A stretch of DNA of 64,000 nucleotides from Nitrospira sp. (GTDB lineage: Bacteria > Nitrospirota > Nitrospiria > Nitrospirales > Nitrospiraceae): the NCBI GenBank assembly GCA_015709715.1, contig CP054184.1, forward strand, positions 2,775,001 through 2,839,000, in the 5' to 3' direction. The notes under the pieces were generated by a model. It did no database searches. It was given only the letters and a program-made list of their open reading frames with translations, and was not told where the DNA came from. Positions within the stretch are counted from its first letter, which is position 1; each line of letters begins with the position of its first letter. Shown piece by piece: positions 1 to 41,249 of the stretch. Both the position numbers and the translations under genes were made by a program.

Positions 1-1239
1 CTCAAGGCGCCGGACCTCATCTGGGCAGGGAGCAAGTATCAACGAGCATGGCTCATCCGATGGCTGACCGGGAAAGAGGCGCCACTCTACGAAAAGGGGT
101 ATCGATGGGATTTGGGCGAAGGGCCGATGCGGCATCCGGTCGTGATGGATGCGGAGGCCGAAGCAATCGCGGACTACTTCCAGCAACATAACAAAGATCC
201 GCGGGTCACGGTCGGAGCTTTCGATTTGGCCAAGGTGAGCAAGTTCGATGCGACCTTCGGCGGCATGGCCTATAAGGCCCACGCGTGCCTGGGCTGCCAT
301 CAGGTCGAGGAGAACGGCAAGGTCATCGGCGGCCCCCAGAGTGCTTCGCTGGTGACGGCAGGGCAACGGTATGACAAGGATTGGCTCTTCCGCTTCGGGC
401 AAAACCCCCAAGACTTTACGGTCCACAATGGGGAGTTCCTGGCCGATGCCACGGAGCCACAACTGCGGGCCGTCATCGGCTACCTCATGGTGCAGGGGGT
501 CAAGGACTTCAAGTATTACGAACCCTGGAACGCTCCGGAGTTCGGGATGGCCAGCGTGGATCGCGGCAAGGTCCTGTATAAGGAATACTGTGCGCAATGT
601 CACGGTATGACGGGCAAGGGCGACGGGCCGGCTGCTTCAGGGCTGGAGCCGAAACCGGCCATCCATGCCAACATTCCGTTCGACAAGGTGCCGACCGACT
701 ATCTCTACAATGTGATCAACCATGGCGGCGCGGCGATGGGCAAATCGCCGAATATGCCCTATTGGGGCTTGACCATCGGGCAGCAGGGGGTGGCGGACGT
801 GATGGCCTATCTGCGGGCCACCTTCAAGGGCGGAGCTGAAATGGCCCAGGCGGCGGTGGGCGGCGGACCATCGGGAGTCTGTCCGCAGCCGAGAAAGACC
901 GCCAAGGCGCCGGCGGACTTCCTGGCGAAGACCAATCCGCTCCCTGCCACGGATGCCACGATCAAGGCAGGCAAGACGCTCTTTCTGCAGACCGCTCAAC
1001 CGGTGGCCTGCGCGATGTGTCACGGCGAGCAGGGCAACGGACAGGGGTTCATGGGTGCGGCGTTGATCCCGCCGCCCAGAAACTTCACCTGCGGTTCCAT
1101 GATGAAAGACATTCCGGACGGACAATTGCTCTGGATCATCAAGAACGGCTCGCCGGGCACGGGCATGATGTCGTTTGCCGGGTTGCCTGATGATCAGGTC
1201 TGGCAGTTGATTGCCTATATCCGGAGTTTGGCGAAGTAA
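1..1239 (+). CDS. Periplasmic c-type cytochrome with three haem sites, 5' end outside window
   Basis: The reading frame is open from base 1, so the true start lies upstream and at least 412 codons are visible. Three CxxCH haem-binding motifs are seen: CLGCH (codon about 96), CAQCH (about 198) and CAMCH (about 336). Each sits in a class I cytochrome c fold, and GMMSFAG near the end supplies a likely axial Met. This is an electron-transfer protein expected in the periplasm; the signal peptide and any further haem domains are off the window. A DsrE gene follows 83 bases downstream. Partner and reaction cannot be told from sequence. Confidence 0.88.
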   Translation, partial: LKAPDLIWAGSKYQRAWLIRWLTGKEAPLYEKGYRWDLGEGPMRHPVVMDAEAEAIADYFQQHNKDPRVTVGAFDLAKVSKFDATFGGMAYKAHACLGCHQVEENGKVIGGPQSASLVTAGQRYDKDWLFRFGQNPQDFTVHNGEFLADATEPQLRAVIGYLMVQGVKDFKYYEPWNAPEFGMASVDRGKVLYKEYCAQCHGMTGKGDGPAASGLEPKPAIHANIPFDKVPTDYLYNVINHGGAAMGKSPNMPYWGLTIGQQGVADVMAYLRATFKGGAEMAQAAVGGGPSGVCPQPRKTAKAPADFLAKTNPLPATDATIKAGKTLFLQTAQPVACAMCHGEQGNGQGFMGAALIPPPRNFTCGSMMKDIPDGQLLWIIKNGSPGTGMMSFAGLPDDQVWQLIAYIRSLAK

Positions 1240-1322
1240 CCACGTGTGGTCGCCTCTCTTTCGTGAGGGCCCAGCTTGGGCGGCGGAAGAGGGACGAAAC
1301 TGGCAGGCATAAAGGAGCGATG

Positions 1323-1682
1323 ATGGCGACGTTTATTGTCTCCGGAAGTCGTGGCACGGATGATCCGACGATGGCGACCCTGCCCTTCATGGCGGCTAAG
1401 ACGGCCAAGGAGCAGGGGCATGATGTCGTCTTGTGGTTATGGAACGAGGCGGTCACGTCGGCCCGCAAGGGGTCGGCGGACCATGTCGTGGGGGTGAACC
1501 TCACGCCGCTGAAGGACTTGCTGGCAGCGGTGCAGGCGGCCGGGATTCCGATCTGGGTCTGCGGTGCCTGCGCGGTGGCGCGACAGATCGGGCAAGGTGA
1601 TTTAGTGGCGGGCGCCACGATCAAGGGCATGCCGGATTACATCAAGGCAGTGGCGGAACGCGATCGAAGCGTCGCCTTTTGA
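1323..1682 (+). CDS. DsrE/DsrF-like family protein
   Basis: This 119-residue protein starts MATFIVSGSRGTDDP and has the small alpha/beta DsrE fold. It carries a Cys pair in VCGACAVARQIG at the place where DsrE-family proteins keep their sulfur-relay or regulatory Cys. AAAGGAG at 1311-1317 serves either ATG 1320 or ATG 1323; 1323 gives the better spacing. DsrE relatives take part in sulfur transfer or are peroxide-related small proteins of unknown role, and the sequence does not decide between these. It lies between a cytochrome and PPK2 on the same strand. Confidence 0.75.
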   Translation: MATFIVSGSRGTDDPTMATLPFMAAKTAKEQGHDVVLWLWNEAVTSARKGSADHVVGVNLTPLKDLLAAVQAAGIPIWVCGACAVARQIGQGDLVAGATIKGMPDYIKAVAERDRSVAF

Positions 1683-1716
1683 GCGGGCCGGGCGAACCGG
1701 CGGGAAGGGGCTTCGG

Positions 1717-2748
1717 ATGGCAAGCGAGAATCGAAGGACCGACAAGATACGAGCGGGTAAGGAGCACCCCGCCGAGGGTAGGCCGATGGAGATCGCGCAG
1801 GGAAACGGCCAGGTCGCCCCGGAAGACCTGGAGGCTATTCCCGTAGCCGTTCCTCAGGAAGGTGATGGGTATCGCCGCTCACGTCCGGATCGCACCGCGA
1901 ATGGGCTGACCGAGGCGGACCTGCGACGAGTCACGACGAAGCGGGGACTTCTGCAACTGCTCAAATCCAACGAGATGGACATCGAGGAGGTCAAAAAAAC
2001 CCTCCTGTACGAAGAGGAGCTGCGCGGGCTCCAAGTTGAACTCGTGCGCTTGCAACGATGGGTGCAAGCCGGCGGACAGCGGGTGGCGATTCTGGTCGAA
2101 GGACGCGATGCCGCGGGCAAGGGCGGCACCATTCGCCGGTTCACCGAGCATTTGAATCCGCGTGCCATGCGGGTCGTGGCATTGCCGAAGCCCACCGACG
2201 AAGAGAAGGGACAGTGGTACTTCCAGCGGTACATCCGCCAATTGCCGAACAAGGGGGAAATCGTCTTCTTCGATCGCAGTTGGTACAACCGCGCCGTCGT
2301 GGAGCCGGTGATGGGCTTCTGCAGCAAGAAGGATCACCAACGCTTTTTGCAGCAGGTGACGGAATTCGAGCACATGCTCTACGAAGACGGCGTGATGATC
2401 ATCAAATTCTGGTTCTCGATTTCCAAAGACGAGCAGGCAAAGCGGTTTGAAGCGCGCCGGCAGAACCCGCTCAAGCAGTGGAAGTTGAGTCCCGTCGACG
2501 AGAAGGCGCAGGAATTGTGGGATTCTTACACGCGCTATAAAGAGGAGATGTTCAGCAAGACGCACACCACCTTCAGCCCCTGGATCATCGTGAAGGCGAA
2601 CGACAAACAGGCGGCCCGGTTGGAGAGTTTGCGGTACGTATTGAATCTCCTTCCTTACAAGGGCAAGGAGGAAGCCGCCATCCGGCTGACGCCGGACCCC
2701 AACGTCATCACACGCTTCCATCGCAAAATGGTGGAGCTGGATTTTTGA
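1717..2748 (+). CDS. ppk2: Polyphosphate kinase 2 (PPK2)
   Basis: This 343-residue cytoplasmic enzyme transfers phosphate between polyphosphate and nucleoside diphosphates. The Walker A motif GRDAAGKGG is at residues 129-137, the PPK2 Walker B region FFDRSWYNR at 184-192, and the lid-region basic motif RRQNPLKQWKLS around 247-258. The length and single kinase domain fit a one-domain PPK2. The N-terminal ~65 residues are charged and of low complexity, longer than usual. GAAGGGG precedes the ATG. The stop codon overlaps the next start by one base (TGATG), so it is probably cotranscribed with the cytochrome gene. Confidence 0.92.
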   Translation: MASENRRTDKIRAGKEHPAEGRPMEIAQGNGQVAPEDLEAIPVAVPQEGDGYRRSRPDRTANGLTEADLRRVTTKRGLLQLLKSNEMDIEEVKKTLLYEEELRGLQVELVRLQRWVQAGGQRVAILVEGRDAAGKGGTIRRFTEHLNPRAMRVVALPKPTDEEKGQWYFQRYIRQLPNKGEIVFFDRSWYNRAVVEPVMGFCSKKDHQRFLQQVTEFEHMLYEDGVMIIKFWFSISKDEQAKRFEARRQNPLKQWKLSPVDEKAQELWDSYTRYKEEMFSKTHTTFSPWIIVKANDKQAARLESLRYVLNLLPYKGKEEAAIRLTPDPNVITRFHRKMVELDF

Positions 2749-3239
2749 TGAAGACGACAGCCGCCCTTGACTGGGTCCGTCCCGTTCGCCTCTGGGCACT
2801 GTTGTCGATGGCTCTGCTCGCCACCGGCTCCGGCGTGGAAGCGGCCAGGCATGACATGCAGCCCCGCGTGCCGCCCGACAAATTGGAATCGCTGCGGTCA
2901 CTGCAGAATCCCCTGCCGAACACGCCGGAGATTGTGGAAAAGGGCAAGGCGCTCTATCACGGCAAGGGGACCTGCGTGAATTGTCACGGCGTGAACGGCG
3001 GCGGTGACGGACCAGGCGCCAAAGGGCTCACGCCGCCGCCGCGTAACTTCCAACATCACGGTTTCTGGCGCCATCGATCGGACGGAGAGCTGTATTACAT
3101 CATTCAGAACGGCTCTCCCGGCACCGCCATGGCTCCCTTCGGGGGGATTCTAACGGACGAGGAAATTTGGAGCCTCATCCGATACGAACAGACGTTCAGC
3201 CGCCATCACGGCCCGCGAAGAAGAATGGGCCGCCTGTAG
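2748..3239 (+). CDS. Mono-haem cytochrome c, periplasmic
   Basis: This 163-residue protein has an N-terminal hydrophobic signal (about residues 13-33, ending near GVEA) and one CVNCH haem motif at about residue 77. GSPGTAMAPFGG downstream provides the usual axial Met loop, so it is a class I cytochrome c. The start ATG overlaps the PPK2 stop by one base. An alternative TTG one codon upstream is less likely. The C-terminus is Arg/His rich. The electron donor and acceptor are unknown. Confidence 0.88.
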   Translation: MKTTAALDWVRPVRLWALLSMALLATGSGVEAARHDMQPRVPPDKLESLRSLQNPLPNTPEIVEKGKALYHGKGTCVNCHGVNGGGDGPGAKGLTPPPRNFQHHGFWRHRSDGELYYIIQNGSPGTAMAPFGGILTDEEIWSLIRYEQTFSRHHGPRRRMGRL

Positions 3240-15191: not shown

Positions 15192-16049
15192 TCAGCGGAC
15201 GATCAAGACCGGGCAGGGCACATGGTGCAGTAGGGCATGCGAAATGCTGCCCAAGAGAAACCGCTCCAGCCCTTTGCGGCCGTGCGAGCCGATGACGAGG
15301 AGATCCGCCGACTTGGCACGTTCGGTGAGAATGTCGGTCGGATCGCCGACCATGGCCAGGGTGCCGACCGTGTACTGATGGTCCATCACGGCCGCCGCCA
15401 GGCTCTTGACGAGATCTTCCGCCGCGCGCATCGCGACGTCGGTCCAATCCTGCAGGGGAAACAGACTGAAGGGATCGGTAGCCGGGATGGGGCGCACGAC
15501 GCTCACGATCGTGAGGTCGACAGCACTCTTGAACGGATGGGCCAGCAGCCAGGACTTGAGGCGCGCGCCGTCTTCATGGCCCTCGACCGCGACCACGACC
15601 CGTTTCAACGGGCCGCTGTGGTCCTTCACGATCAGGGTCGAGCAGTCGGCGTGCAGCGCGACCCGGTGCGAGACGCTCCCCAACATGAGTTCCCCGACCC
15701 GTCCGCGCCCTCGAGCGCCCATGACGATCAAGTCGGCGCCGGTTTCCCGTGCCTTGTCCAGGATCAGCGAGGCCGGTTTGGCGAACTCACAGACGCGGGT
15801 GATCGTCACCCCTTCCGACGGCAGCATCGTCGTGGTATGGTCGAGCAGTTGTCGGCCCGCCTTCTCCATCGCTTGCCGGAACTCGTCGTACCCCTGCATG
15901 TTGCTCACTTCCGCCACCAGCGGATATTGAAACATGCCCAAGTCGATCCCGTGCACCAGGACGACCTCCTGCAGGTCGTACAGTTGGGAGACTTCACGGA
16001 CTCCCGCGAACGCCTGTTCCGACCAATCGAGCGCGATCAAGACACGCAT
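15192..16049 (-). CDS. Universal stress protein, tandem UspA domains
   Basis: This 285-residue protein has two UspA folds. Each keeps the nucleotide-binding signature: GARGRGRVGELMLGSVSHRV near 125-144 and GSHGRKGLERFLLGSISHAL near 253-272. These G-x2-G-x9-GS patterns predict ATP binding. CAAGGAG precedes the ATG. A second tandem UspA gene is at 35835. It is embedded in the Hsp20-led operon. Confidence 0.9.
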   Translation of the reverse strand: MRVLIALDWSEQAFAGVREVSQLYDLQEVVLVHGIDLGMFQYPLVAEVSNMQGYDEFRQAMEKAGRQLLDHTTTMLPSEGVTITRVCEFAKPASLILDKARETGADLIVMGARGRGRVGELMLGSVSHRVALHADCSTLIVKDHSGPLKRVVVAVEGHEDGARLKSWLLAHPFKSAVDLTIVSVVRPIPATDPFSLFPLQDWTDVAMRAAEDLVKSLAAAVMDHQYTVGTLAMVGDPTDILTERAKSADLLVIGSHGRKGLERFLLGSISHALLHHVPCPVLIVR

Positions 16050-16060
16050 AACGCTCCTTG

Positions 16061-16606
16061 TTAGAACAACGGGTGGGGCGACGTACCGAACGGCATGATC
16101 CTCGGCGAATCACCTAGATTGCCGCGGATGCGCCACCGGCCCTCTTCGAGCGTCAGATAATGGACCTCACCGTACCAGCTGTCGATGGGAACCAGCAGGC
16201 CGCTGGTTTTCGAGAGTCCCGACAGACTCCCCGTGCAGGTGACCTCGACGATAGTCTGTGAGCCGGACCCGACCTTGACGATGCGGGAGAATTGATGGAC
16301 GTTGGACAGCTCTCGAAATTCGTCGAAGAGGTCGCGCCAGATTTTCATCATATCGGCCTTCTTCAGGCCGTGGTAATTGTACTGCTCCGCATAGAGCGCC
16401 ATGACGCCGTCCAGGTTCCGGCTGTGCATGGCGTCGTCGGCCTGCCGAAAGGTCGTCAAGACGGCCTCTACCGTGGCCTGATCGACGTCGGTCGCCATGC
16501 CGGGCAAGACCTGTATCTCCGCCTGTGACGGCGCAGCCGCCGCCCACAAGGCCCCCGCCAGCAGCAGCCGGCTCAGTCGCCCCTTCGATCGTGCCCCGTT
16601 GCGCAT
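16061..16606 (-). CDS. Secreted NTF2-like (SnoaL/DUF4440-type) protein
   Basis: This 181-residue protein has a signal peptide ending near APSQA. A cone-shaped NTF2-like domain follows, suggested by DQATVEAVLTTFRQADDAM, DGVMALYAEQYNYHG and the closing strand LEEGRWRIRG. No catalytic residues are obvious. It is periplasmic and may bind a small ligand. It sits 11 bases upstream of UspA and just after the cupredoxin gene in the same operon. Confidence 0.7.
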   Translation of the reverse strand: MRNGARSKGRLSRLLLAGALWAAAAPSQAEIQVLPGMATDVDQATVEAVLTTFRQADDAMHSRNLDGVMALYAEQYNYHGLKKADMMKIWRDLFDEFRELSNVHQFSRIVKVGSGSQTIVEVTCTGSLSGLSKTSGLLVPIDSWYGEVHYLTLEEGRWRIRGNLGDSPRIMPFGTSPHPLF

Positions 16607-16627
16607 GGTGGCTCCTGTTCCTTCCGG

Positions 16628-17086
16628 TCACGCCGACGGAATTTCCAACACAAACAACTCACCCTTCATCTGTGGGTGCAAGTCGCACCGGAACGTCAAG
16701 CGCGCGTTGGATTCCGGCACGAAATGCAACACCAACGTTTTCCCCGGATCGACATGAAACCCCTCGATCCCGATCCCATAGGCGGTCAGCCCCTCACCCT
16801 GTACCCTGATTCTCAGCGTGGGCAGGGCCGACGACTGAAACCCATGGGGAACAATGTCCTGATTGCGCAAGATGATCACGGTGGGGACGCCGAACCGGAT
16901 GGGGCGGGGGTCGCTGAGGGCGAAATCGTAATTGCGCATGAGCAATTCGATCCGCTGTTCTTGTTGTTGCGGTGTCGGGACGTCATCCGACGGCCCCGCC
17001 GTGGAGAGGCCCGGCAGCAGGAGAAGCCCCAGGACCGCCATCGCCACCCATCCCTGTCGCCGTTGCCTGTCACGTCCTGTCCTCAC
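16628..17086 (-). CDS. Periplasmic cupredoxin-like copper protein
   Basis: This 152-residue protein has a signal peptide (about 15-30) and a single cupredoxin fold. Candidate copper ligands are His in IVPHGFQ and Cys, His and Met in CDLHPQMKG near the C-terminus, the type I (blue copper) order H-C-H-M. It overlaps the zinc-protein gene by four bases. A close relative at 37821 has CDIHPEVKG with Val in place of Met. It is a likely electron carrier. Confidence 0.84.
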   Translation of the reverse strand: MRTGRDRQRRQGWVAMAVLGLLLLPGLSTAGPSDDVPTPQQQEQRIELLMRNYDFALSDPRPIRFGVPTVIILRNQDIVPHGFQSSALPTLRIRVQGEGLTAYGIGIEGFHVDPGKTLVLHFVPESNARLTFRCDLHPQMKGELFVLEIPSA

Positions 17087-17598
17087 AAAGCGGCCGCCTT
17101 CCGTTCGCTGGTCCAGGTGACCCGTACGAAGTCTTCGTCCTGCTCATACTGCACGACCAACTCGCCGTGGTGCGCATGTTTGAGCGCCTCACCGATGCGG
17201 CGAGGCAAGTGACTGTCGGTCGTGGACACCACGAGGCCTTCCGCGCGATCCTCGATCGCCATGATCCGGGCCAGGGGATGTTCCTGCTTTTCCCTGGATT
17301 CCGTGTTCCGAATGATTCCCAGCAGTTCGTCGCGATGGTGGTCCTTGAAGGTCCCCTTCAGTGTGACGAGCCCTTTCGGGTATGTATCTCGGATGCGCAG
17401 GCAGGCCGGGCAGACGATTTCTTCGGCCCCCGCCGGTTTGGCGCCCCAGGTCCAACGGCCTTTGTGAAAGAGCGCACCGCATTCCGTACAGACGGTCGGC
17501 TCCTTGAGTTTGCCCGGCATCTTGTAGGAGTCGTGCTGGTACTCTTGAACGAATCGATCATGGCGGACACCATGGCCGCCCTCGGTTGATGTGCTCAT
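17083..17598 (-). CDS. Zinc-binding BCAM0308/NMD3-like protein
   Basis: This 171-residue cytoplasmic protein has a zinc ribbon, CTECG (about 37) and CPACL (about 63), separated by 25 residues. A C-terminal alpha/beta domain carries STTDSHLPRRIGEALKHAH. The arrangement resembles BCAM0308-family proteins, a group of unknown function often found in stress operons. ATGA overlaps join it to the phosphoribosyltransferase upstream and the cupredoxin downstream. Confidence 0.68.
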   Translation of the reverse strand: MSTSTEGGHGVRHDRFVQEYQHDSYKMPGKLKEPTVCTECGALFHKGRWTWGAKPAGAEEIVCPACLRIRDTYPKGLVTLKGTFKDHHRDELLGIIRNTESREKQEHPLARIMAIEDRAEGLVVSTTDSHLPRRIGEALKHAHHGELVVQYEQDEDFVRVTWTSERKAAAL

Positions 17599-35834: not shown

Positions 35835-36716
35835 ATGCGATGGTTGGTGGCGCTGGATGAATCGGAGTTTTCCGAGCGGATCATAGGGTGGATGCGAGCG
35901 TTCCCACATTCCAAGCAGACGGCCGTCACGGTGGTGCATGTGCTTGCCCCATTGGATGTGCCTGAGACCATCGGCCTCACCGGGCAGCAGCTGCTGCTGC
36001 AACAACAGGGAGCGATGGTGGAGGCTTTGCTGCAGCGTGTGCGCCGACTCCTGGAAGAGTCTTTTGCGGACGTCGAGGTCATTTTGCGGGAGGGTGTTCC
36101 GAGCCGGGAGATTCTGCAAGTCATACAGGAACGTCGGCCGGACTTGGTCGTCTCCGGCATGCAGGGGCTCTACCGATCGCCGGGTTTCACGATAGGTGGG
36201 GTCGCTCAACGGCTCCTCTCCTATGCCCCCTGCAGCTTGATGCTGGTGCCCGGCAAGGCGCAGCCGGGCGATGGGTTGCGAATCATGTTGGCCACGGACG
36301 GCTCGGAAGATGCGCGGCGCGCCGCCCGCGTGGTGGCGGAATTGCCGGGTGTACGTGAGACGATGATCGTGAGCGTCGTCCGTCCGCTCGGCGCGGAGAA
36401 GGCGGTCCTCGAACGGTTTCAGCCCGAGGAGAGCCGCAAGATGGAAGCGGCGTTTCTGCGTCGGCGGCGAGCCGAGGCGCGTAAAGCCCTGGCCGAATGC
36501 GAATGCCTGCTGCGGCAGGCAGCGATGGTGGTGCGCGCCAGAGTGATCGCCGGGCATCCGGCCGAGGCCATCGTCCGTGCCGCTCGGCGTGATGCGGTGG
36601 ATCTGTTGGTGGTCGGCTCACGCGGCCTGACCGGGATGAAGGCGACTGCGCTCGGGAGCGTGTCCCAGACGGTAGCGCAGTTGGCGCCCTGTCCAGTCCT
36701 GATCGTGAAGCCGTAG
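35835..36716 (+). CDS. Universal stress protein, tandem UspA domains
   Basis: This 293-residue protein has two UspA domains. The first begins MRWLVALDESEFSERI and has an altered nucleotide loop (GMQGLYRSPGFTIGGVAQ). The second has the intact GSRGLTGMKATALGSVSQ. One active ATP site is therefore likely. GGGGGAG precedes ATG 35835. A PAS-LuxR regulator gene follows by 57 bases. It is only distantly similar to the UspA at 15192. Confidence 0.88.
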   Translation: MRWLVALDESEFSERIIGWMRAFPHSKQTAVTVVHVLAPLDVPETIGLTGQQLLLQQQGAMVEALLQRVRRLLEESFADVEVILREGVPSREILQVIQERRPDLVVSGMQGLYRSPGFTIGGVAQRLLSYAPCSLMLVPGKAQPGDGLRIMLATDGSEDARRAARVVAELPGVRETMIVSVVRPLGAEKAVLERFQPEESRKMEAAFLRRRRAEARKALAECECLLRQAAMVVRARVIAGHPAEAIVRAARRDAVDLLVVGSRGLTGMKATALGSVSQTVAQLAPCPVLIVKP

Positions 36717-36773
36717 CAGAGGGGACGTGCGCAACTCCCATGGAGCGGCAGATTCTCCACAGAGGTCGTGATC

Positions 36774-37466
36774 ATGGTGCAGATCACGGAGATGGTGGCG
36801 CGCATCGCCGACGGTGCCATGCTGGTGGATGAGACCGGTATGGTGAGGATGTGGAACAGGGCCGCCGAGCGGTTGCTGGGGTTTCGTGCCGACGAAGTGG
36901 TGGGGCGTCCTTGCCGAGACGTTTTATGCGGCCGAACGCTAGGCGGGAGCGAATTGTGTTCACCGGCATGCGAAATCGGGAAACGCCTTGCCGCAGGGAC
37001 CGGCGTGCGAAACTACGATATGCAAACCCGTGCGAAGTCCGGTCGGGTCGTGTGGGTCAATATCAGCTCCATCCCCGTGCCGACCCGGAAGGCCGGTCGA
37101 TTCATGAGGCTGCATCTGTTTCGCGACATCAGCCGGCAGATGAAAGTGTTGCAGTTGGCGGAAGATCTCCACGGTATGCTCTCGGCCACGGGCCATGCGG
37201 GTTCGATGCCGGCGCCGGCGCGACCGACGCCGCAGGCCTCCGCAAACCTGCCGGTCGGTCGAGGCACGTCGCCGTTGACGAAACGGGAGCAGGATGTGCT
37301 GCGGTTGATGGCGGCCGGGAGCACGACAAAAGAGATTGCGGATGCGCTGTTTATCAGCATGGTGACCGTCCGAAACCACATCCAACACATTTTTGAGAAG
37401 CTGGGCGCTCACACCCGTTTACAAGCCCTTGCCCTTGCATTCCCCCCCGGTCCGTCCCCCGCCTAG
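36774..37466 (+). CDS. PAS domain-LuxR family transcriptional regulator
   Basis: This 230-residue protein has an N-terminal PAS domain (about 10-125) containing four Cys (DVLCG, ELCSPACEIG). A Pro/Ala linker leads to a LuxR/GerE helix-turn-helix, LTKREQDVLRLMAAGSTTKEIADALFIS split across about 165-195 and followed by MVTVRNHIQHIFEKLG. The Cys cluster in the PAS loop could sense redox or metal. It lies between UspA and the cupredoxin cluster and is a good candidate regulator of either. GTG 36768 is an alternative start. Confidence 0.86.
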   Translation: MVQITEMVARIADGAMLVDETGMVRMWNRAAERLLGFRADEVVGRPCRDVLCGRTLGGSELCSPACEIGKRLAAGTGVRNYDMQTRAKSGRVVWVNISSIPVPTRKAGRFMRLHLFRDISRQMKVLQLAEDLHGMLSATGHAGSMPAPARPTPQASANLPVGRGTSPLTKREQDVLRLMAAGSTTKEIADALFISMVTVRNHIQHIFEKLGAHTRLQALALAFPPGPSPA

Positions 37467-37506
37467 CGATAAGGGAGAGCCAACGCGCGCGGCCTGAGCG
37501 AGACGC

Positions 37507-37522
37507 GTGGCGTGCCTGTCGC
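37507..37522 (+). promoter_or_regulatory. Candidate sigma-54 (-24/-12) promoter before the cupredoxin cluster
   Basis: TGGCGTGCCTGTCGCA has GG and GC ten bases apart and TGGC at -24. It lies upstream of a gene remnant and about 300 bases before the first cupredoxin gene, so the driven transcript may include the remnant. Confidence 0.3.
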
Positions 37523-37679
37523 ATGATGCAACTGATTTAGCGTCAAAATGATGCAAACGTCTCATTGTCCCGGCGGTCATGCCTGCCTATGCTGTTCCTA
37601 TGACGACCATTCCACAATCGCCCGGATCGGTCGACGATCCGATGAGAACGAGAAACGGAGTGAGCGATGTGGAACAGGT

Positions 37680-37772
37680 GTATATGGGATTTCGGGCGAG
37701 AGCGCGGACCGATTGTTCGACTATTGCTACACCGTGACGCCGGCGAAGTATCACAATGTCCCCCGCCACTAG
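37680..37772 (+). pseudogene. C-terminal remnant of the 39401/39926 small secreted family
   Basis: About 28 codons encode ISGESADRLFDYCYTVTP and AKYHNVPRH, matching the C-terminal signature of the proteins at 39401 and 39926 (ISAEVAERLFDYCYLVTP and ARYHDVSRH in the latter). No N-terminal part, signal peptide or start is present upstream. It is a truncated third copy left by duplication and deletion. Confidence 0.68.
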
Positions 37773-37820
37773 GATGGGCGAGGGATCAGACATTCGCGCA
37801 TCGAACAAAGGAGGGCAATC

Positions 37821-38318
37821 ATGAGAATCAGAGGACACACAGTACGATTACTTGCGGTGTCCGTGTCGTTCGCGGCCATGACGGGGTGGTCAGCGATGGG
37901 CGCGGACCGCGCGCTGGGTCAGGCGCCGGGCATGGGGGCTCCGCCGTCAAAGGTGGAGATCACCATCAAGGATCGGCAACACGGATATGAAACCGTGGGG
38001 CTCACGATGCCGTCGCATGACACGACGGTCGTGGTGCGTAATCAGGATACTGTCACGCACGGGTTTGCCTCGAAACTGTTCAAGGACATTTCTGTGCGGA
38101 TGGAAGGCGGGATCGAGGTTGCGGGAAGGAATTTCAAATCCTATCACGTCGATCCGGGAAAGACGATGACCCTGCACTTCTCCACGGCTCCGTCGAAGTT
38201 CGATCCTGCGACCGGCATTGCCGAGAGCATGCGGCACGCGCTCTGGTGTGACATTCATCCCGAGGTGAAGGGGGAGTTGTATGTCATCGAAACCAGGGGC
38301 GAAATCGGCGGCGGCTGA
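37821..38318 (+). CDS. Periplasmic cupredoxin-like protein
   Basis: This 165-residue protein has a signal peptide to about residue 33 and a cupredoxin fold with His in TVTHGFAS and Cys/His in CDIHPEVKGELYV. It is a clear relative of the 16628 protein, but the Met ligand position is Val and an insertion (FDPATGIAESMRH) precedes the Cys. GGAGGG precedes the ATG. It probably carries copper or electrons in the periplasm. Confidence 0.82.
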   Translation: MRIRGHTVRLLAVSVSFAAMTGWSAMGADRALGQAPGMGAPPSKVEITIKDRQHGYETVGLTMPSHDTTVVVRNQDTVTHGFASKLFKDISVRMEGGIEVAGRNFKSYHVDPGKTMTLHFSTAPSKFDPATGIAESMRHALWCDIHPEVKGELYVIETRGEIGGG

Positions 38319-38353
38319 ACGTCACGTTCGCCTGCAATCGAGAGGTTTCACCC

Positions 38354-38806
38354 ATGAGACGCATGGGGTCAGCCCTGCTGATGAACGGCGTGGCGACCGC
38401 AGCCCTGGTCGGAACCCTGAGCCTGGGGAGTTCGGCCGGGGCTGCGGAACTTCATTTTGCAGTCCAAGAGGTGGGGGAAAAGCGGGCCCTCTGGGTGCCG
38501 GAGGAGGTGGTGCTGCACCGCAGCACGGAACTGGTGGACGGTCTGGTGTTCGTATTGGAAAACCCGACGGATCGAACCCATGCCTTTGCGGCCTACGGCC
38601 TGTTCGAGGAAGTGACGACCGCCGGCGGGGCCGTTGCCAGGAAGCCGTTGCGCGTCAATGTGACATCAGAAGATACGGTCCGCGTGCAGATCAGCACGAC
38701 GCAGTTTCTCGGGCGTACGGATGCGGAGGTCGAAGAGTTTCCGTTTTTTTGCCCGCTGCATCAAGGAGATGCCCACGTGGGCGGGACGATCCGCGTGATC
38801 CCGTAG
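38354..38806 (+). CDS. Periplasmic cupredoxin-like protein, tandem copy 1
   Basis: This 150-residue protein has a signal peptide ending near SAGAA. Strands follow with REVV-like VPEEVVLHRSTEL and LENPTDRTHAFA. The C-terminal copper loop FFCPLHQGDAHVGG supplies Cys and His, but no Met at the usual distance. It is closely similar to the next gene, so the pair is a tandem duplication. Confidence 0.8.
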   Translation: MRRMGSALLMNGVATAALVGTLSLGSSAGAAELHFAVQEVGEKRALWVPEEVVLHRSTELVDGLVFVLENPTDRTHAFAAYGLFEEVTTAGGAVARKPLRVNVTSEDTVRVQISTTQFLGRTDAEVEEFPFFCPLHQGDAHVGGTIRVIP

Positions 38807-38829
38807 GCGCCTGTGAGGCGGGAGGCAGG

Positions 38830-39315
38830 ATGAGGCAGGACGTGAAGGGCACGCAGAGACGTTGCAGCCGGTTCTGGCTATCGGCGATAGGGCTGTTCCT
38901 GGTGATCGTGGGTACCGCTGCGACGCCTGCGAGGGGGGCTGCCGGAACGTTTCGTTTTGTGATTCAAGATGTGGAGGGGGGCGCGGCGGCCTGGTTTCCG
39001 CGCGAGGTTGTCATTCACAAGAGCACGGATCTTGAGGGAGGATTGATCTTCATCCTGGAGAACCCGACTCCCCGCACCCATGTCTTCGAAGCTCCGGATT
39101 TGTTCGAACAGGTGACGGAGGGGATCGACGTCCCGGCCGTCAAACCGTTGCGGGTCTATGTGGCCCCGGGAGAGACCGTGCAGGTTCGGATCAGCACCGA
39201 GCAGTTGTTCCGCGAGCCGGAAGCCGATGCGTCGGGCTCGCAGAACTGTCCGTTTTTCTGCCCCTTGCATGGGACCGAGGATGCGTTGCGAAGTATGATT
39301 CGGGTGGTGCCGTAG
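38830..39315 (+). CDS. Periplasmic cupredoxin-like protein, tandem copy 2
   Basis: This 161-residue protein has a signal peptide (about 12-37) and mature domain motifs PREVVIHKSTDL, LENPTPRTHVFE and PFFCPLHGTEDAL. It shares the strand order of the 38354 protein. The loop after CPLH differs in length, so the two may tune different copper sites. GGGAGGCAGG precedes ATG 38830; a frame open to 38281 is a shadow of the upstream gene. Confidence 0.8.
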   Translation: MRQDVKGTQRRCSRFWLSAIGLFLVIVGTAATPARGAAGTFRFVIQDVEGGAAAWFPREVVIHKSTDLEGGLIFILENPTPRTHVFEAPDLFEQVTEGIDVPAVKPLRVYVAPGETVQVRISTEQLFREPEADASGSQNCPFFCPLHGTEDALRSMIRVVP

Positions 39316-39400
39316 CCGCCGGAGGCGCAGTCGATGGTGCCGACTGCCGCGCATGCATCCTTGGATGATGGCGCAGAGACCGAATACCAGGGGGTGAACC

Positions 39401-39907
39401 ATGACACGCCTTGTCACATCTGGAACGGTGGTCGCCCTGTTCCCGTGGCTGCTCGTTTCGGTACTGCTCCCGTGGGCGGGCCGAGTGGCGGATACGAGTG
39501 CGAATGGGCTGGTGGAGCAACGGCGTGAGGCCGCAGGGGGGGGCGGTACCGATGCTCCCAGGTCTGTCGACTCAGCGGGCTGGGTGGATCAATTGACGGC
39601 CTTTGTCGTTGTCCAACAGAGCTTGGCCGGGACTCGGGGCGAGGCCGGATCATACGATGCCTATGTCGGTCAGATCGTGCTGGTGCGGAGTCTCTATGAG
39701 CGTGGCGAATGGAGCGGGGCCTTCGTGACGATGAATCGCTTCATGGACATGCTGGAGGCGCGAGAAGGGGGAATCAGCGGGCGGGCGGCCGACGCGCTGT
39801 GGGACTACTGTTATGTGGTGACTCCGCCGGCCTTGCACGATGTCAGGCGTCATCGACAATGGTGGGAGAAGCATGTGGAGTGGGACAAGTTTTTCTGGGA
39901 GGAATAG
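39401..39907 (+). CDS. Small secreted protein, novel family (copy 1)
   Basis: This 168-residue protein has a signal peptide (about 8-28), a low-complexity Gly/Arg linker and a helical body. The conserved core is MNRFMDMLEAREGGISG followed by WDYCYVVTPPALHDVRRH. The same core is in the 39926 protein and the 37680 remnant. The C-terminus here adds a Trp-rich tail (WWEKHVEWDKFFWEE). One Cys is conserved, no haem motif is present, and no known family is recognised. It is probably periplasmic and in the cupredoxin transcript. Confidence 0.68.
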   Translation: MTRLVTSGTVVALFPWLLVSVLLPWAGRVADTSANGLVEQRREAAGGGGTDAPRSVDSAGWVDQLTAFVVVQQSLAGTRGEAGSYDAYVGQIVLVRSLYERGEWSGAFVTMNRFMDMLEAREGGISGRAADALWDYCYVVTPPALHDVRRHRQWWEKHVEWDKFFWEE

Positions 39908-39925
39908 GGGTGGGTGAGGGCTACC

Positions 39926-40348
39926 ATGCGAATTATTGAAGACATCAGGTGGATGGCGGGAATCGTCCTGTTCCTGGCGAGCGTCATCTGTGCTGCGCCG
40001 GGCGGATCGAGCGTGGCCTCTGCGGCCGGAGATGACTGGCTTGATTCTCTGGTGCAAGCGGTGCTCGCCGAGCAGGCGAAGGAAGCCTTCCGGGGAGGCA
40101 GGTTCACCCCCTACCTCGCGCAATTGACCACGGTACGAGCCAACTTGATGAGCGGTGAGAACGAGGCGGTGTACCGAGCCATGAATCGATTCATGGACAT
40201 GCTCCAGGCGCGTGAAGAGGGGATTTCCGCCGAGGTGGCCGAGCGGCTGTTCGACTATTGTTACCTCGTGACGCCGGCGCGCTACCACGATGTCTCCCGG
40301 CATCTCCACCGGCTCAGCGGGCATCAGGCTGGTGCGCCACCGGCGTGA
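39926..40348 (+). CDS. Small secreted protein, novel family (copy 2)
   Basis: This 140-residue protein has a signal peptide (about 10-35) and the helical core AMNRFMDMLQAREEGISAEV followed by RLFDYCYLVTPARYHDV, shared with copy 1. The N-terminal region DDWLDSLVQAVLAEQAKEAF has a counterpart in copy 1 (WVDQLTAFVVVQQS). It starts 18 bases after copy 1. The function is unknown; association with copper proteins suggests a periplasmic accessory role. Confidence 0.68.
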   Translation: MRIIEDIRWMAGIVLFLASVICAAPGGSSVASAAGDDWLDSLVQAVLAEQAKEAFRGGRFTPYLAQLTTVRANLMSGENEAVYRAMNRFMDMLQAREEGISAEVAERLFDYCYLVTPARYHDVSRHLHRLSGHQAGAPPA

Positions 40349-40443
40349 GACTGCCATAGGCGAGCACAGGCCGCTCACTCGCAGGATCGGTCTCGATTGG
40401 AAGGGGGGTGTGCGGGTTGTGGCTCCATGCAAGAAGGGGCACC

Positions 40444-40671
40444 ATGTCGGCAGATGGCGGAGAGGCTGGAGATCGCGAAGCACTGGACGCGAGGTTTCGC
40501 CGCTGGCGGGCCGCCCATAGAACACCCAGTACGGTCCTTGACGCCCATCGCGAGGTCATATTGGAGCGCGTCTCCCAATCCATGACCTTCGAGGGTGAGC
40601 CCGTGACCGTCTCTCGCCTCAAAACCCTCTTGGAGCAATCTGGCCCATGGCCGAAGAACCCGGACACCTAG
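40444..40671 (+). CDS. Fic antitoxin-like protein (class I inhibitory motif)
   Basis: This 75-residue protein carries SMTFEG near residue 48, matching the S/T-x3-E-G/N inhibition motif that places a Glu in the ATP site of Fic enzymes. It is followed by a helical C-terminus. Its gene overlaps the Fic gene by 25 bases, the usual antitoxin-first order. It should bind and silence the AMP-transferase encoded next. Length and layout match VbhA-type antitoxins; overall identity cannot be judged. Confidence 0.68.
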   Translation: MSADGGEAGDREALDARFRRWRAAHRTPSTVLDAHREVILERVSQSMTFEGEPVTVSRLKTLLEQSGPWPKNPDT

Positions 40672-41249
40672 GAACCACCCGCTCATTCGAGACGACGCAA
40701 GGGCACTTGACCTATCCGGAGCTCTCGGAACGGCTTGCCGTCGCGCTGGCGCGGATTCTCGACCGGATCTTGCAAACCCCCGCTCAGGACATCGTCGTGA
40801 CGCCGGAATGGTTGTGCGAGAGGCACCGTGAGTTGGCCGGAGATCTCTTTCCCGATTGGGCGGGACGATTCCAGACAACCGACGTGAAGGTGGGCGCCTT
40901 GGAGCCCCCTGCTTTTTATCAAGTACCGATGCTGGTGCGGTCCTTCTGCGACGATCTAACCGAGCGGCTGCGGCATGTCCGGGAGGACGACCTCACCCAC
41001 ATTGCCGCATTGCTGGCCTGGGTGGACTGGCGCTTCCAGTGGATCCATCCCTTCAAGGATTTCAACGGCCGTATCGGCCGGATGGTCCTTGCGGCACTCT
41101 TATACAAACTCACTCTGCCGCCGGTCGAAACGGCGCCGATCGATCCTGAGGGGCGTCGTGCCTATCTCGAAGCCCTGCGTGCCGGGGATGCGGGCGACCT
41201 CCTGCCCCTCCAGCACCAGTGGATCGCCCGGCTCGCGGCCGCAATTTAA
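40647..41249 (+). CDS. Fic family AMP-transferase toxin
   Basis: This 200-residue protein has the Fic core motif HPFKDFNGRIGR (about 137-148), with catalytic His and the anion-binding N-G-R. A Phe replaces the common Gly/Ala before Asn. Fic enzymes AMPylate target proteins. GGAG lies ten bases before ATG 40647. It overlaps the antitoxin and ends 18 bases before a convergent gene. Confidence 0.84.
   Translation: MAEEPGHLGTTRSFETTQGHLTYPELSERLAVALARILDRILQTPAQDIVVTPEWLCERHRELAGDLFPDWAGRFQTTDVKVGALEPPAFYQVPMLVRSFCDDLTERLRHVREDDLTHIAALLAWVDWRFQWIHPFKDFNGRIGRMVLAALLYKLTLPPVETAPIDPEGRRAYLEALRAGDAGDLLPLQHQWIARLAAAI

Follow-up and report, generated by a model that had tools for sequence, protein, structure and literature searches.

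Sequence comparison and structural models indicate that two small proteins of Nitrospira sp., here named p1 and p2, belong to an unnamed, lineage-restricted family of exported, paralogous, single-domain proteins with a predicted four-helix-bundle fold. Their genes stand last in a conserved operon of cupredoxin-like genes, and we propose, at a probability of about 0.4, that p1 and p2, p1 specifically, act as periplasmic helical partners in a cupredoxin electron-transfer module. Nitrospira oxidize nitrite all over the world, and little is established about which proteins carry electrons in their periplasm. The conserved, privately regulated operon offers a concrete, testable gene set of unassigned cupredoxin-like proteins and lineage-specific helical partners, and the helical family is a widespread, unnamed component of the Nitrospira envelope proteome. 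Coordinates refer to the window, the 64,000-nucleotide stretch of DNA that was analyzed, unless another locus is named.

The p1 gene (39401-39907, forward strand) encodes 168 amino acids, and the p2 gene (39926-40348, forward strand) starts with ATG, with a GTG at 39914. The two proteins are 43% identical across 115 amino acids (E 2e-28) and share the cores MNRFMDML(E/Q)ARE..GIS, DYCY(V/L)VTP, and HDV(R/S)RH, as the first-pass annotation of this DNA had described for the genes at these positions. Signal sequences for export were read off both sequences, searches of Pfam and NCBIfam gave no family above cut-off, and the CxxCH haem motif of c-type cytochromes was found in neither protein, which agrees with the earlier description of a new small secreted family with no haem motif or known domain. 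AlphaFold2 prediction (38 sequences) placed helices at residues 37-52, 57-75, 79-95, and 102-115, with block pLDDT values of 94-98, a first loop at 85, and weaker ends; for p2, most blocks between residues 41 and 120 of the predicted four-helix bundle exceeded a pLDDT of 94.

The mature chains of p1 and p2 contain one cysteine each. One cysteine and one histidine had been taken as invariant; the conserved residues are instead one cysteine and two histidines, and their C-x8-H-x4-H pattern is kept in 86 of the 95 family sequences. The pattern was missing as a set from L004 and five L005-type rows of the 95-row tree, and the other rows without it were truncated or frameshifted open reading frames. 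Three further family members are encoded elsewhere in the genome of the window (G000, 4.16 Mb, single contig), two of which, representing the paralogous L004 and L005 lineages, lack the cysteine and both histidines. A C-terminal motif, [DE]Rxx[ML]xF, was considered as a common feature of the exported proteins and rejected, as the pattern test matched the L003-type gene only.

To judge from sequence searches, the helical family is recognized inside the Nitrospirales only, one odd contig apart. Of 395 genomes sampled from the phylum, 46 carry it: 44 belong to the taxonomic family of the window and two to a second family within that order. When 84,980 species genomes were scanned with patterns of the p1, p2, and copy-1 type, which distant types elsewhere could escape, matches were Nitrospira or Nitrospirae records with two exceptions. 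One was a 22-kb 'Gaiellales' contig (QZKG01000068.1; L109, L111) that contains an entire Nitrospira-type cluster and may reflect mis-binning or transfer; the other was a weak Azoarcus match without a family open reading frame.

The conserved gene order comprises a PAS-LuxR regulator, an operator/promoter, a further helical-family gene (copy 1), an extra cupredoxin-like gene (cupA'), cupA, cupB, cupC, p1, and p2. N. defluvii FP929003 (L103) and many Nitrospira records have the full order, and the comparison points to an ancient operon shared between species. The claimed linkage of the family to cupredoxin-like genes was thus upheld at this locus, where three exported cupredoxin-like genes follow a remnant of copy 1 and the order is conserved in relatives. 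Among the papers searched, none was found to describe the operon. Upstream of the regulator lies a gene for a universal stress protein with two Usp domains (35835..36716, forward strand; Pfam Usp, E 1.2e-46; start set by eye at MRWLVALDE), and its orthologue occupies the same place in L095-L098, L103, and L107. At 40408-41249, a small open reading frame begins upstream of a Fic-domain gene (40647-41249) and overlaps it. The SMTFEGE stretch of this small frame is reminiscent of a Fic inhibitory motif (S/TxxxEG); from sequence, the two may be a toxin and its antitoxin. L099 and L100 have an intact Fic gene, and matches in L105 and L097 were confined to fragments.

The regulator gene (36768..37466, forward strand; Pfam GerE, 3.1e-20; PAS_9, 1.2e-13) precedes the cluster in nearly all relatives. 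Three cysteines of its product (PC-x14-C-x3-C) were invariant in 25 of 25 homologues compared, which suggests a redox or metal sensor. The operon probably has its dedicated regulator in this protein, which would bind an operator-like element, AAATGATGCA-NN-CG(G/T)CTCATTGT, with inverted half-sites AATGA...TCATT, at 37546..37568 on the forward strand. The element was recovered from the upstream region common to 18 clusters, 15 of which contain the 8-mer CTCATTGT. At up to three mismatches, it was the sole match in this genome (window expectation 0), and it was absent from the solitary p2 loci tested. In genome G023, the cluster lies in two separate halves, and the element precedes each of them at up to five mismatches (L126 3395, L127 4406); the single occurrence in the genome and this doubled one support the partner model. 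A probable sigma-70-type promoter, TTGTCC-N17-TATGCT (37565..37593, forward strand), was read from the sequence and overlaps the operator; comparable boxes and spacing, TTGTC-N17-TANNCT-like, occur in the upstream regions of relatives.

Copy 1 survives in the window as a pseudogene (37667..37772, forward strand), in which the region of the start codon runs directly, with a shift of frame, into the final ~100 bp, and which ends with DYCYTVTPAKYHNVPRH-stop. BLASTN aligned 37670-37769 with the 3' part of an intact copy 1 in a relative (L096 3159-3259; 81%, E 5e-22), 37650-37672 aligned with the start region of the same gene (L096 2865-2887), and the promoter region (37440-37589) showed an 89% match to a relative. 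The ends of copy 1 are directly joined, ~0.27 kb being gone, and the window also lacks the entire cupA' that follows copy 1 in relatives. As the promoter region, start, and last ~100 bp remain, and an intact copy 1 occupies the equivalent place in L095, L096, L098-L100, and L103, we regard the remnant as a genuine decayed gene, in line with the earlier observation that the end of the core stands alone at 37680 before three cupredoxin genes. In N. defluvii isolate NOB1 (L097), the regulator is directly followed by cupA, and no copy 1, cupA', or intact p1 was seen at the locus; G089, with the same layout, retains a short family fragment directly before p2 (G089:C3:405319-405453).

The three exported cupredoxin-like genes of the window all lie on the forward strand: cupA (37821..38318), in which H80 and C143-x2-H146 are invariant; cupB (38354..38806), with a CPLH motif; and cupC (38830..39315), a cupB paralogue with 42% identity. 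In alignments of all three, the type-1 copper ligand pattern His ... Cys-x2-His is invariant or nearly so, and a profile match between cupB and cupA (86% probability) places the His and Cys-x2-His in register. This pattern and a beta-rich prediction liken the proteins to cupredoxins (Pfam Cupredoxin_1). However, all 15 of the cupA homologues matched Cupredoxin_1 below its cut-off (best E 6e-4), the window's cupA scored 16 bits against the gathering cut-off of 27 bits, and cupB and cupC did not match it at all, cupB having no Pfam family of its own. The AlphaFold2 model of cupA was poor (pLDDT 54), and no meaning attaches to its fold matches, except that copper oxidases are among them. A sequence search of the PDB with the helical family and both cup profiles returned nothing credible. 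With identity below the Pfam cut-offs and a poor cupA model, an electron-transfer function is putative. A second exported cupredoxin-like gene elsewhere in the window (16628-17086, within 16061-17598) matches Cupredoxin_1 (E 4e-4) and cupA-type proteins and adjoins a SnoaL-like exported gene and a Usp gene (15192-16049).

In relatives sampled without the helical family, the neighbor of cupA and cupB is a multihaem cytochrome c gene. The cup genes of five such loci (L121-L125) adjoin an orthologue of the window's cytochrome c gene at 112-1239 (E ~1e-210), and DsrE and PPK2 orthologues lie close by in most of them. This arrangement points to an electron-transfer context that is independent of the helical family. 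In the window itself, a block of cytochrome c, DsrE, PPK2, and cytochrome c genes at 112-3239 stands without cup genes; related genera have cupA and cupB inside a block of this type, apart from the helical family.

Linkage was examined in 98 genomes of the taxonomic family by comparing 150 listed helical-family matches with strong cup matches, the counts being approximate. Forty of the 150 listed matches, in 15 genomes, lay within 6 kb of a cup gene, so that the family occurs widely without cupredoxin genes, the outcome named beforehand by the first-pass annotation as one that would refute its reading. Among the matches listed, 17 genomes had both, 32 the helical family only, nine cup genes only, and 40 neither, an association that was not significant (Fisher p 0.11, n=98), which goes against the accessory role in copper insertion or electron transfer that had been suggested for the family as a whole. 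In a FastTree phylogeny of 95 sequences, built on few columns and weak at its deep forks, all 22 rows of the p1 clade lay beside cup genes. By contrast, p2 persists in solitary form, without cup genes, in L052, L058, L059, L061, L082, L085, L090, and L101. Because p2 grouped with copy 1 and p1 formed a separate old lineage, we rejected a recent tandem duplication of p1 and p2. The reported repeated duplication beside copper proteins is real insofar as p1, p2, and a remnant copy are present; the tandem is, however, ancient and shared between species. The 16 rows of the L003-type clade keep C-x8-H-x4-H and have no cup neighbor, an absence that leans also on wider coordinates since most of these loci span ~1.5 kb on each side. 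The most conserved member, found in many sampled Nitrospira genomes, is of this type (L062 9934-10425); it adjoins an alginate-export-type porin gene and has no cupredoxin neighbor.

Taken together, these observations suggest a model in which p1 and p2 would be exported by the Sec route and form a periplasmic module with cupA, cupB, and cupC, switched on by the neighboring PAS-LuxR regulator from one private promoter. The periplasmic location and the mode of regulation are inferred. Electron transport is the most likely function of the cupredoxin-like proteins, because cupA and cupB adjoin multihaem cytochrome c genes in the sampled relatives that lack the family. As p1 was never found away from cup genes, it would most likely serve cupB and cupC as a specific helical partner or adaptor, holding or docking them, although operon linkage by itself does not establish binding. 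Since p2 persists alone, p2 and the copy-1 lineage would have a related yet separable job. The C-x8-H-x4-H residues may constitute a small metal or thiol site or a part of the fold. Counting against the partner model are the family members without cup neighbors, which are the majority, and the nine genomes with cupA and cupB but no family member among the matches listed. An unlikely, more far-reaching version is that the bundle carries an unrecognized periplasmic metal or redox-thiol site that evolved in the Nitrospira lineage and was duplicated for several envelope redox systems, p1 being dedicated to a private cupredoxin relay as its partner.

The strict linkage of p1 to cup genes also speaks against a generic periplasmic helical protein-binding domain of the FIMAH/NnGH92-FHB type that multiplied by duplication in Nitrospira and was taken up by several systems, its link to cupredoxins being incidental to its basic function. 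Such a domain would account for the many members without cup neighbors, and both the top fold match and the sub-threshold FIMAH matches given below lean toward it, but the FIMAH cut-off was not reached, the fold score lies within the range of unrelated helical bundles, and the NnGH92 domain has itself been assigned no function; overall, we consider this reading somewhat unlikely. Quite unlikely, in our assessment, is a copper-handling role of the kind suggested by the first-pass annotation, in which the conserved cysteine and two histidines would bind Cu(I) and hand it on to the cupredoxins as a metallochaperone. The retention of C-x8-H-x4-H outside the L005-type lineage and L004, the shared operon, and a weak fold likeness to Csp copper-storage bundles are in keeping with it. 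However, the motif persists in the L003-type lineage away from any cup gene, nine genomes have cupA and cupB without the family, and the Csp likeness is within the range of any helical bundle. A general copper-insertion factor is disfavored because most of the family occurs without copper proteins. We give little credence to a third reading, namely that p1 and p2 serve an envelope stress response, as stress or storage proteins, and that the cupredoxin-like proteins likewise act in stress and do not carry electrons; the upstream Usp gene in many relatives and the PAS domain with its three invariant cysteines fit it, but the cytochrome c genes adjoining cupA-cupB in sampled genomes without the family do not. 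We retain the partner model, tentatively.

Among known systems, the Csp copper-storage proteins share the four-helix bundle (Z about 4 to 5), but their bundles are lined with many cysteines, whereas p1 and p2 have one cysteine and two histidines. Foldseek returned no match for the family model at E <= 0.001. In a second look with VIA, the top match was 7nsn residues 1319-1409 (Z 9.3, rmsd 2.7 over 87), which we read as fold likeness, not proof of kinship, since unrelated helical bundles reach Z ~9 by chance. Pfam FIMAH (PF22888), the one weak match that recurred in the family, was matched below its cut-off by 17 of 38 members; the consensus scored 21.6 bits (E 3.3e-4) and p2 17.8 against a gathering cut-off of 24.8 bits, the p2 match spanning residues 53-108, that is, helices 2-4. 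The four-helix bundle typical of FIMAH and the NnGH92 FHB is predicted here by the AlphaFold2 model and fits the 7nsn match. The matched part of 7nsn is the four-helix-bundle (FHB) domain of the GH92 mannosidase NnGH92, to which its authors could assign no function (PMC10167667). That domain is the C-terminal module of a large hydrolase, whereas p1 and p2 stand alone, and identity is 10%; nevertheless, both are extracytoplasmic, and the predicted helix arrangement is alike over nearly the whole domain.
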